This document shows, one piece after another, positions 26,402 through 39,556 of a DNA stretch of 64,000 bases. Every line of letters starts with the position of its first letter. The first letter of the stretch is position 1. The stretch is from Elusimicrobiota bacterium (GTDB lineage: Bacteria; Elusimicrobiota; Elusimicrobia; UBA1565; UBA9628), in contig JAPLKL010000014.1 in NCBI GenBank assembly GCA_026388095.1, positions 62,001-126,000 of the forward strand. Direction: 5' to 3'. The position numbers were made by a program, and so were the translations under genes. Below the pieces are notes generated by a model. It saw only the letters and a program-made list of their open reading frames with translations. It was not told the origin of the DNA and made no database searches.

Positions 26402-26430
26402 TTGACTCCGCAAGCCCCGTGTGCTATCAT
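26402..26430 (+). promoter_or_regulatory. Sigma70-type promoter of the initiator tRNA
   Basis: -35 TTGACT and extended -10 TGC-TATCAT are separated by exactly 17 nt. The mature tRNA 5' end is at 26436, only 5 nt after the -10, so the transcript should start at or within a base or two of the mature tRNA end. Confidence 0.75.
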
Positions 26431-26435
26431 ATTTC

Positions 26436-26512
26436 TGCGGGGTAGAGCAGCCCGGTAGCTCGCAAGGCTCATAACCTTGAGGTCGCTGGTTCAAATCCAG
26501 CCCCCGCAACCA
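26436..26512 (+). tRNA. Initiator tRNA-Met (CAU)
   Basis: A complete 77-nt cloverleaf with encoded CCA. Acceptor 26436-26442 pairs with 26502-26508. The anticodon CAT is at 26470-26472 in loop CTCATAA, and the T-arm is a normal TTCAAAT loop. It is the initiator rather than an elongator because the D-arm has the A11:U24 purine-pyrimidine pair and the body closely follows the bacterial fMet sequence. Two features differ from the E. coli type: base 1 is U and can pair with A72, and the anticodon stem has A29:U41 in place of the outermost of three G:C pairs. A copy of the repeated small-RNA element follows after 4 nt. Confidence 0.93.
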
Positions 26513-26516
26513 ATTT

Positions 26517-26578
26517 CAGTTTCGAACCTGTAACGAGAAATGTCAGGACCTTGACCCCCGAAAGGGGGTTTCGTGTTT
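26517..26578 (+). ncRNA. Repeated small-RNA element, copy A (downstream of tRNA-fMet)
   Basis: A 62-nt block nearly identical to 38017-38078 and closely related to 39497-39556. Parts: a CCTG/CAGG hairpin with a large loop (26527-26547), then a stem A-C5/G5-U closed by GAAA (26554-26569), followed by TTTCGTGTTT. No separate promoter is visible, so it should be made as the 3' part of the tRNA transcript and also end that transcript. The 3' tail TCGT can pair with ACGA in the first hairpin's loop. No known Rfam class is recognised. Confidence 0.6.
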
Positions 26579-26592
26579 CTGGGGAGAACCAC

Positions 26593-26745
26593 ATGAAGAT
26601 GCACCTCTTCGAGTTTCATTCCGAGAAGAAGAAGCTGAAGTGCCTCTGCGGTTGGGAGCGCACCCTCAAGACCGCCGACGTCCGCGTGGCCCATGCGAAG
26701 TTCAAGGAGCATTGCGCCGAGCACATACGCCCCACTGCCAATTAG
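26593..26745 (+). CDS. Small protein with Cys/His zinc-finger-like spacing
   Basis: A 50-residue protein beginning MKMHLFEF, with GGGGAG 7 nt before the ATG. The arrangement 'C-L-C-G-W' followed 15-20 residues later by 'AHAKFKEHC' gives Cys-x-Cys and His/His/Cys candidates for a single zinc site. It lies 14 nt after the terminator hairpin of RNA copy A, so it is expressed only if that terminator is passed or an unseen promoter exists. No homologue is recalled. It is called a gene because of its ribosome binding site and patterned cysteines. Confidence 0.55.
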   Translation: MKMHLFEFHSEKKKLKCLCGWERTLKTADVRVAHAKFKEHCAEHIRPTAN

Positions 26746-37975: not shown

Positions 37976-38004
37976 TTGCATTCCAGAACCACTTGTGGTA
38001 TTAT
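37976..38004 (+). promoter_or_regulatory. Sigma70-type promoter of small-RNA copy B
   Basis: -35 TTGCAT and -10 TATTAT with exactly 17 nt between, and TGG before the -10. The expected start is near 38011, the first base of the GCCGCA that opens the element. It is divergent from rsmH. Confidence 0.7.
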
Positions 38005-38010
38005 TTTGTT

Positions 38011-38078
38011 GCCGCAGTTTTCGAACCTGTAACGAGAAATGTCAGGACCTTGACCCCCGAAAGGGGGTTTCGTGTTTT
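38011..38078 (+). ncRNA. Repeated small-RNA element, copy B (own promoter)
   Basis: About 68 nt from GCCGCA to the terminal T-run. It carries the same 60-nt core as the copy at 26517, changed only near its 5' end. First hairpin CCTG/CAGG at 38026-38046; terminator stem 38053-38068 with a GAAA loop, then TTTCGTGTTTT. It has a 17-nt-spaced promoter directly before and a terminator at the end, with no open reading frame or ribosome binding site inside, so it reads as a free-standing small RNA. The next gene has its own -10 (38097). Confidence 0.7.
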
Positions 38079-38096
38079 AGGGCCCGCCGCGCTTGG

Positions 38097-38102
38097 TATA
38101 AT
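38097..38102 (+). promoter_or_regulatory. Extended -10 (TGG-TATAAT) 7 nt before the ATG at 38110
   Basis: A perfect consensus hexamer with upstream TGG. The transcript would begin at or one base before the ATG: leaderless. It shows that the downstream gene does not depend on reading through RNA copy B. Confidence 0.55.
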
Positions 38103-38109
38103 CCTCCCT

Positions 38110-38352
38110 ATGAAGCCCCCCCTGAGCGACCGCCGCGCCGTGGAAGCGGCCGTGGCCTCCCTGCAGGAGCGGCTGGCCGACGGCGACCCCGGCGACGCGG
38201 CCTTGCGCAAGGACTGCGCGGCCGCCCTCTCGGACCTGCGCGCCGCCTACCGCGCCGACCGGGCCCTGTTCTCGCCGGAGACCATCGCGGCCCTGCAGGA
38301 GCTGCGCGAGGTGCTCAGCGAGGCCGGCCCCGCTTCGGAGCCGGCTCCGTGA
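38110..38352 (+). CDS. Small helical protein, unknown function
   Basis: An 80-residue, fully helical protein rich in Ala, Arg, Asp and Glu with no cysteine. It has no named domain. Its stop overlaps the GTG of the next gene (GTGA), so it is translationally coupled to the spermidine-synthase-like protein. A perfect TATAAT 7 nt upstream supports expression. Confidence 0.65.
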   Translation: MKPPLSDRRAVEAAVASLQERLADGDPGDAALRKDCAAALSDLRAAYRADRALFSPETIAALQELREVLSEAGPASEPAP

Positions 38353-39044
38353 GCTTGCCGGACCTGGAGATCCTGGCCTACGAGCCCACGCCCTTGGGCG
38401 CGCTCTGCCTGCGGCGGCGCCGGCTCCCCTCCGAGCCGGAGACCGCGGTGACGGAGGTCACCCTCGGAGGCGAGTTCCTCATGAGCAGCGTCAACACGGC
38501 CTCCGAGCGGGCCCTGGCCGAGACCGCCCTCAAGCTGCATCCGGGCCGAGAGCTCAAGGTCCTGGTCGGCGGGCTCGGCCTGGGCTGCACCGCGAGCGCG
38601 GCCCTGGCCTCGCCGCGCGTCAAGAGCCTGGAAGCCGTGGAGCTCCTGCCCCAGGTCATCGCCTGGCTGGAGCGCCGGCTCGTGCCGCTGGCCGACGAGC
38701 TCAAGGCCGACGCGCGCTTCCGGGCGGTCCAGGGAGATATCTTCGCGATGCTGGCCCGGCCGCCGAAGCGGCTCTGGGACCTCATCCTCATCGATGTCGA
38801 CCACTCGCCCGAGGAGCGCCTGGACGAAGCCAGCGGACCTTTCTACACCGCGCAGGGCCTGGCGCGGGCCCGCAGGCACCTGGCGCCCGGCGGCGTCCTC
38901 GGGGTCTGGTCGTATTCCGAGTGCGCCCCTTTCGGCGAGGCGCTGCGCAGGACGTTCGCGGCGGTCCGCGTCGAGCCGGTGCCCTTCAAGAACAGGCTCG
39001 CGGGCACGGCCCGCACGGATTGGCTCTACTTCGGTCTCTCCTGA
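38349..39044 (+). CDS. Spermidine-synthase-like methyltransferase-fold protein
   Basis: A 231-residue protein from a GTG start overlapping the previous stop. It has the Rossmann fold of spermidine synthases: 'VLVGGLGLGCTASAAL' (SAM-type loop), acidic end 'AVELLPQVIAWLER', 'RAVQGDIFAML', and 'DLILIDVDHSPEERL' where the active-site region lies, then 'GGVLGVWSYSE'. It is shorter than true SpeE (about 280) and lacks the N-terminal beta domain, so it may act on another substrate. Such stand-alone forms are often annotated only as spermidine-synthase-like. Confidence 0.8.
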   Translation: MSLPDLEILAYEPTPLGALCLRRRRLPSEPETAVTEVTLGGEFLMSSVNTASERALAETALKLHPGRELKVLVGGLGLGCTASAALASPRVKSLEAVELLPQVIAWLERRLVPLADELKADARFRAVQGDIFAMLARPPKRLWDLILIDVDHSPEERLDEASGPFYTAQGLARARRHLAPGGVLGVWSYSECAPFGEALRRTFAAVRVEPVPFKNRLAGTARTDWLYFGLS

Positions 39045-39112
39045 TATCGCAGGCGGCCGTTGATGTTTCCTTGACCCCGCCGGGCTAGGCTATGGGCAAG
39101 GAGGACAGGATC

Positions 39113-39397
39113 ATGGCGATAGAGGAGAAGAAGTACAAGACGGGATTCGTCATCGCCGCAGCGGGTTTCGGCGCCGCTCTTTGCGTCGTCACCGGCATTG
39201 TCATGGGCGTGCTCTTCGCGCCGAAATCGGGCAAGGAGACTCGGGCCCGACTCGACGAGTGGCTCAAGGAGAAGCGCGACCAGGGCTCGGACCTCCTGGC
39301 CAAGATCAAGGAGGAGAGCCTGCGCCGCAAGGAGCAGCTGGCGGCCACGATCAAGGCCGGCCGGCAAGCCTACGTCGAAACCTCCAAGCACGGCTGA
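39113..39397 (+). CDS. YtxH-domain membrane-anchored protein
   Basis: A 94-residue protein. One N-terminal membrane helix ('GFVIAAAGFGAALCVVTGIVMGVLFAP') is followed by the YtxH signature 'LFAPKSGKETR' and a charged amphipathic helix. The family is stress-associated in Gram-positives. AAGGAGG 8 nt before the ATG at 39113 selects this start over 39092. Confidence 0.8.
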   Translation: MAIEEKKYKTGFVIAAAGFGAALCVVTGIVMGVLFAPKSGKETRARLDEWLKEKRDQGSDLLAKIKEESLRRKEQLAATIKAGRQAYVETSKHG

Positions 39398-39452
39398 GAC
39401 GGCGGGCCGGGGAGCCCTGTTGCGCAATTGTGAACGGCGGCCCCCCGGCCTA

Positions 39453-39481
39453 TTGACGCAGGCGGCGCCCGGGGGTATACT
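39453..39481 (+). promoter_or_regulatory. Sigma70-type promoter of small-RNA copy C
   Basis: -35 TTGACG and -10 TATACT with exactly 17 nt between. Transcription should begin near 39488-39491, where the element's GCCGCA starts. Confidence 0.72.
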
Positions 39482-39490
39482 CATCGAGTA

Positions 39491-39556
39491 GCCGCACTTT
39501 CCGAACCTGAGACGAGCAATGTCAGGACCGAGCCCCCGAGAGGGGGTTTCGTGTTT
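39491..39556 (+). ncRNA. Repeated small-RNA element, copy C (own promoter, diverged)
   Basis: About 66 nt, roughly 85 percent like copies A and B. The changes keep the structure: the first hairpin becomes CCTGA/TCAGG (one pair longer), the terminator loop changes GAAA to GAGA (both GNRA), and the C5/G5 stem (39533-39546) is unchanged. ACGAG in the first loop, GTCAGGACC and TTTCGTGTTT are invariant in all three. Downstream is only the 3' end of a minus-strand gene, so the element cannot be a leader of a coding mRNA here. Confidence 0.7.

Follow-up and report, generated by a model that had tools for sequence, protein, structure and literature searches.

A conserved two-hairpin RNA family of Elusimicrobiota, linked to the initiator tRNA gene and probably acting in trans

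The 64,000-nt stretch of contig JAPLKL010000014.1 from an Elusimicrobiota bacterium (the window) contains three copies, A, B and C, of a conserved RNA element of about 60 nt with two hairpins, in a gene of roughly 65-70 nt. With a probability of about 0.6, we take them as members of a new Elusimicrobiota family of trans-acting structured small RNAs (sRNAs), which would ancestrally have been co-transcribed with the initiator tRNA (tRNA-fMet) and would somewhat more likely bind a protein than an mRNA. Action in trans seems most likely because copies have their own promoters and a terminator, and no fixed downstream gene. The family looks like a regulatory RNA. Within the known kind 'dispersed multi-copy sRNA', this previously uncatalogued family is a variant whose unusual trait is the coupling to the initiator tRNA. 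It would be the first phylum-specific sRNA family for Elusimicrobiota, bacteria nearly without detectable Hfq, ProQ and CsrA, and in several families it links an RNA gene with the initiator tRNA.

The plus strand has three exact matches to the 28-nt core CGAACCTGNNACGAGNAATGTCAGGACC, at 26523, 38022 and 39502, far beyond what chance would give. Number, positions, strand and boundaries of the copies are as stated in a preliminary description of this DNA. When up to 3 mismatches were allowed, no match beyond the three copies was found in the window or in 100 shuffles. This genome has a fourth copy, D, on a different contig (G000:C16:8476-8503, minus strand). The features of the window are as follows:

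26402-26430, plus strand: promoter-like site of the tRNA-fMet gene, TTGACT-17-TATCAT, read from sequence
26436-26512, plus strand: initiator tRNA gene, anticodon CAT, CCA end (Rfam tRNA, 67.8 bits; ARAGORN, tRNA-Met)
26517-26578, plus strand: copy A, tRNA-linked type; leader, CGAA, hairpin 1 (26527-26547), ACC, hairpin 2 (26554-26569), tail UUCGUGUUU
26593-26745, plus strand: 50-aa open reading frame (ORF; MKMHLFEF...CLCGW...) behind copy A, containing Cys and His
37976-38004, plus strand: sigma-70-like promoter of copy B; TTGCAT (37976-37981), 17-nt spacer, TATTAT (37999-38004), extended -10 (TG)
38011-38078, plus strand: copy B, stand-alone type; hairpin 1 (38026-38046), hairpin 2 (38053-38068), tail (38069-38077)
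39453-39481, plus strand: sigma-70-like promoter of copy C; TTGACG (39453-39458), 17-nt spacer, TATACT (39476-39481)
39491-39556, plus strand: copy C, stand-alone type; hairpin 1 (39506-39526), hairpin 2 (39532-39547), tail (39548-39556)

The preliminary description had placed copies B and C behind promoters with 17-nt spacers, with a common GCCGCA start, and had listed a GAAA to GAGA change and the replacement of a T-T mismatch by an A-T pair in hairpin 1; checks of the sequence and of the coordinates of both boxes agree on each point. Its GNRA-capped terminator stands for the window copies; among relatives, the terminator loop is often, not always, GNRA. Absent from it was the finding that copy A adjoins the initiator tRNA and that many copies belong, as the 3' part, to a transcription unit with this tRNA. 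A distance of 7 nt separates copy A from the upstream initiator tRNA gene, which is the sole match to the tRNA-fMet pattern in this genome, and the TTGACT-17-TATCAT promoter would drive the two together.

For the comparative analyses we used a collection of 101 copies from several families. Thirty-three of these (type T) lie directly 3' of an intact tRNA-fMet, none of them (0/33) with an own promoter scoring at least 10, and seven (type t) follow only a 3' fragment of that tRNA. Among the 55 stand-alone copies (type P), a sigma-70-like promoter with a score of at least 10 was found in 33 (60%) vs. 1.6% of shuffles; the spacer was 17 nt in 28/33 and an extended -10 was present in 25/33, the -10 box ending about 14-28 nt 5' of the core. 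With hairpin 2 present in all types, these 33 copies have the own promoter and intrinsic terminator of an autonomous RNA gene. The remaining six (type Q, one genus) have a conserved palindrome near TGACGCGNNCGTCA upstream. As type T copies occur in families f1, f2, f3, f13 and f14 in otherwise differing contexts, the position behind the initiator tRNA is suggested to be ancestral.

Genes 3' of the tRNA-linked copies belong to 28 families for 32 copies, about half on the opposite strand, and those 3' of the stand-alone copies to 43 families for 53 copies, many of them convergent. Conservation of the neighbours does not extend beyond genus or family; within the genus, copies B and C remain in syntenic positions. 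The earlier statement that there is no consistent downstream gene, and that a leader is unlikely, is thus upheld by the unrelated or convergent genes behind the promoter-bearing stand-alone copies. A cspA neighbour seen in one genus was rejected as a general partner, since the locus is orthologous and a separate terminator and promoter lie in between.

The core is near-invariant across the 101 copies, with differing neighbour genes, and its consensus reads CGAACCYGN-RACNAGNAAUR-N'CRGGACC, followed by a GC hairpin and UUYGUGUUU. From 5' to 3' the elements are UUU, CGAA, CCYGN, RACN, A-[GNAA]-U, R, N'CRGG, ACC, 0-5 nt, hairpin 2 (typically RCCC...GGGY) and UUYGUGUUU, often with two or three G after the tail. 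In what follows, c numbers the positions of the core, beginning with the C of CGAA, and t those of the tail. The hairpin 1 pair c7:c23 occurs as UA (60), CG (39) or AU (2) and is unbroken in 85 distinct sequences. Pair c9:c21 forms in 9/9 distinct sequences in which c21 is not U (permutation about 1e-4), a U-U being tolerated otherwise. Hairpin 2 has 46 distinct stems and is less conserved than hairpin 1. The covariation score of the whole structure lies above 500/500 shuffles, which do not remove relatedness. The preliminary description had named further copies and covariation in relatives as a check; many copies were found, with compensatory changes at both hairpin 1 pairs and in the stems of hairpin 2. 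RNAfold supports hairpin 1 in 83/90 sequences. The z-scores of the window copies are only about -1.2 to -1.3, so the structural case rests on comparison rather than on energy. A resemblance to a T-arm (TTCGAACC) was considered and dropped, as most copies are without the closing stem.

The core with up to 3 mismatches is present in 31/57 relatives. Genomes with the RNA have 1-5 copies. A covariance model gave matches in 77/341 Elusimicrobiota genomes, about a dozen of them weak and judged to be chance; the strong ones fall in f1, f2, f3, f13 and f14. Five weak matches in f12 (E about 0.002-0.009) were inspected and could be assigned to coding sequence or to ordinary terminators. Scanning 84,980 species for the core returned 70 stretches, essentially confined to Elusimicrobiota: they are titled Elusimicrobiota or are untitled bins, plus one bin titled Bacteroidetes, and several untitled genomes matched at contig positions identical to those in genomes of the phylum. 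The contig titled Bacteroidetes may have been misbinned or may represent a transferred island. The 60-nt core provides a simple handle for metatranscriptome searches.

The window was compared with the Rfam 15 covariance models at the gathering threshold and only the tRNA matched; at E<=5, the regions around copies B and C gave only an unrelated MAT2A_B match at 38872. The RNA therefore falls in no Rfam 15 family, signal recognition particle RNA, guanidine-III and 6S included, as the preliminary description had supposed when it recognised no known class. Our literature search found no earlier description of an Elusimicrobiota sRNA family.

In the mechanism that we propose, the polymerase would read through tRNA-fMet and halt at hairpin 2, and 3'-end processing of the tRNA would free the sRNA. 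Its level would then follow initiator-tRNA transcription because of this read-through and release, and extra copies, controlled in other ways, would add further doses. Recognition is probably the task of hairpin 1. The invariant A-GNAA-U can be read as a GNRA-like tetraloop with c16 as its free N; this cap stands above an asymmetric RACN/R internal loop, the free positions c13 and c16 being interspersed, and the two together look like a three-dimensional recognition surface rather than an antisense seed. It is somewhat more likely that the RNA binds a protein, titrating or loading it, than that it pairs in the manner of Hfq-dependent sRNAs; this is the weakest step. We favour it because of the way in which fixed and free letters are arranged in the loop and because Hfq, ProQ and CsrA are lacking in nearly all of 39 related genomes. 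In a profile search of these genomes, which are partly incomplete, Hfq was detected in 0/39, ProQ in 1/39 and CsrA in 2/39, none of the three in the genome of the window, and 6S RNA in none of the 39. A further hypothesis is a closing helix between CGAA and UUYG, giving a compact three-way junction. A broader role, in which the RNA would be physically tied to the making of initiator tRNA and, as a global regulator, would signal the capacity for translation initiation in place of Hfq-dependent sRNAs, CsrB and 6S, we consider rather unlikely.

Several observations weigh against the main reading as a new family of trans-acting structured sRNAs. The shuffle tests leave the relatedness among sequences in place, and the RNAfold minimum-energy folds of window copies A and B differ from the proposed structure. 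The CGAA/UUYG helix is nearly invariant, its support coming only from a G-C/G-U/A-U exchange (with a single A-U) at one pair, and RNAfold does not predict it. The RNA is also missing in other families of Elusimicrobiota and in some genera of the family to which the window organism belongs, and therefore is not universally needed.

Of the alternatives, a base-pairing (antisense) sRNA family, whose shared motif pairs with mRNAs or other RNAs without Hfq, survives best, and we regard it as possible but doubtful. The conserved UUU/GAAC, ACC and UGUUU stretches could pair. Against this, the conserved loop letters are broken by c13 and c16, unlike a seed, and the chaperone on which an Hfq- or ProQ-dependent sRNA relies was not detected in this organism. 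The longest match to 16S/23S rRNA was 8 nt, equal to the shuffle mean, and no complementarity to tRNA-fMet was found; mRNA targets were not searched.

Such a family would resemble cyanobacterial Yfr2, multi-copy sRNAs at unconserved loci with a common motif in the first stem-loop (PMC6778093). Yfr2 is closest to the Elusimicrobiota RNA in its way of working, a likeness and not membership: the Elusimicrobiota RNA has 1-5 copies per genome, unrelated neighbours and a fixed hairpin 1 loop. Motif and phylum differ, no Rfam match supports homology, and the Elusimicrobiota RNA is linked to the initiator tRNA. 6S RNA (RF00013) is likewise small, structured and possibly growth-linked, but at about 187 nt it is longer than the 60-70 nt seen here, and the Elusimicrobiota RNA is without the open-promoter-like long hairpin. 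CsrB/RsmZ are protein-titrating sRNAs, and a single structured RNA binding a protein in trans is a possible likeness; yet, in place of repeated GGA in loops, the Elusimicrobiota RNA has one conserved GGA, paired in the stem of hairpin 1, and CsrA is rare. In Escherichia coli, 3' external transcribed spacer RNAs such as 3'ETS-leuZ are cut from tRNA precursors and serve as sRNA sponges with Hfq. The likeness is an sRNA as the tail of a tRNA transcript; here, in contrast, a conserved structured gene forms the tail and also occurs with promoters of its own.

At the examined tRNA-fMet loci, what comes next is in most cases the RNA or an integrase; the integrase is either of the tyrosine type, preceded by a leader of its own, or a large serine recombinase in convergent orientation. 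In G230 and G031, integrase genes adjoin the intact tRNA and the RNA copy follows downstream, on the same strand. In G003 one contig bears the tRNA and another the displaced RNA copy, which follows a tRNA fragment and retains the synteny of window copy A; in G210 the RNA stands at both island ends, the outer one decayed. Judged from these arrangements, islands insert between tRNA-fMet and the RNA gene and displace the latter from its promoter, an example of how tRNA-targeting islands can separate an RNA gene from its promoter. The stand-alone copies could descend from such events by promoter gain.

Another alternative is that integrative elements with tRNA-fMet as their attachment site include the RNA as an attachment or boundary sequence and have spread it. 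This is improbable. Its support comes from the tRNA-end fragments and RNA at island borders, from the two ends of the G210 island, and from the contig titled Bacteroidetes, which has only 87 nt, tRNA end plus RNA, in common with the compared Elusimicrobiota loci. Most island cases, however, have the integrase and not the RNA after tRNA-fMet, copies B and C keep genus-level synteny, and f14 copies with common neighbours already suggest that tRNA-linked copies are inherited vertically among genomes that have no islands. IMG/VR viral contigs contained no copy, and phage records gave only 20-nt chance matches.

A conserved terminator and processing element of the tRNA-fMet transcript, copied elsewhere and without function as a separate RNA, is very improbable. 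The 33 copies directly behind tRNA-fMet and the intrinsic-terminator-like hairpin with its U-rich tail would suit it, but stand-alone copies have promoters of their own, hairpin 1 is more conserved than the would-be terminating hairpin, and other tRNA-fMet genes end in unrelated terminators. A cis-acting leader, riboswitch or attenuator is largely refuted: the short aptamer-like hairpin before a terminator and the same 50-aa ORF behind copies A and D would fit, yet the downstream families are too varied, there is no Rfam riboswitch match, and no conserved antiterminator pairing is visible, because a fixed hairpin 1 stands beside a freely varying hairpin 2.

The 50-aa ORF matches no Pfam family; it is duplicated along with copies A and D (window 26593-26745 and L055), a near copy lying 3' of copy D in this genome and in a relative. 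Second, 5'-damaged RNA copies without promoters lie shortly behind the tRNA-linked copy at L181 4397 and L034 4470. The region upstream of the Q-type copies (L040, L043, L080, L084, L114, L176) has a conserved TTTGTTA block and the palindrome TGACGCGNNCGTCA, together probably a regulator site. Behind tRNA-fMet in G210 (L260 881-16546) lies a defence island with a type I restriction system and a cyclic-oligonucleotide-based antiphage signalling system (CBASS; patatin, DncV-like/SMODS synthase, E2-ThiF), flanked by tRNA plus RNA and by tRNA end plus decayed RNA. The serine recombinase of G003 occupies L262 5550-7268, its last 15 codons being antisense in the 3' half of tRNA-fMet (window 26472-26516). 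Integrases behind tRNA-fMet in L222, L230, L233, L243 and L257 have a common leader, possibly an attenuator, in which a motif resembling TTTCTCGACGAGAAA and a terminator precede the start codon.
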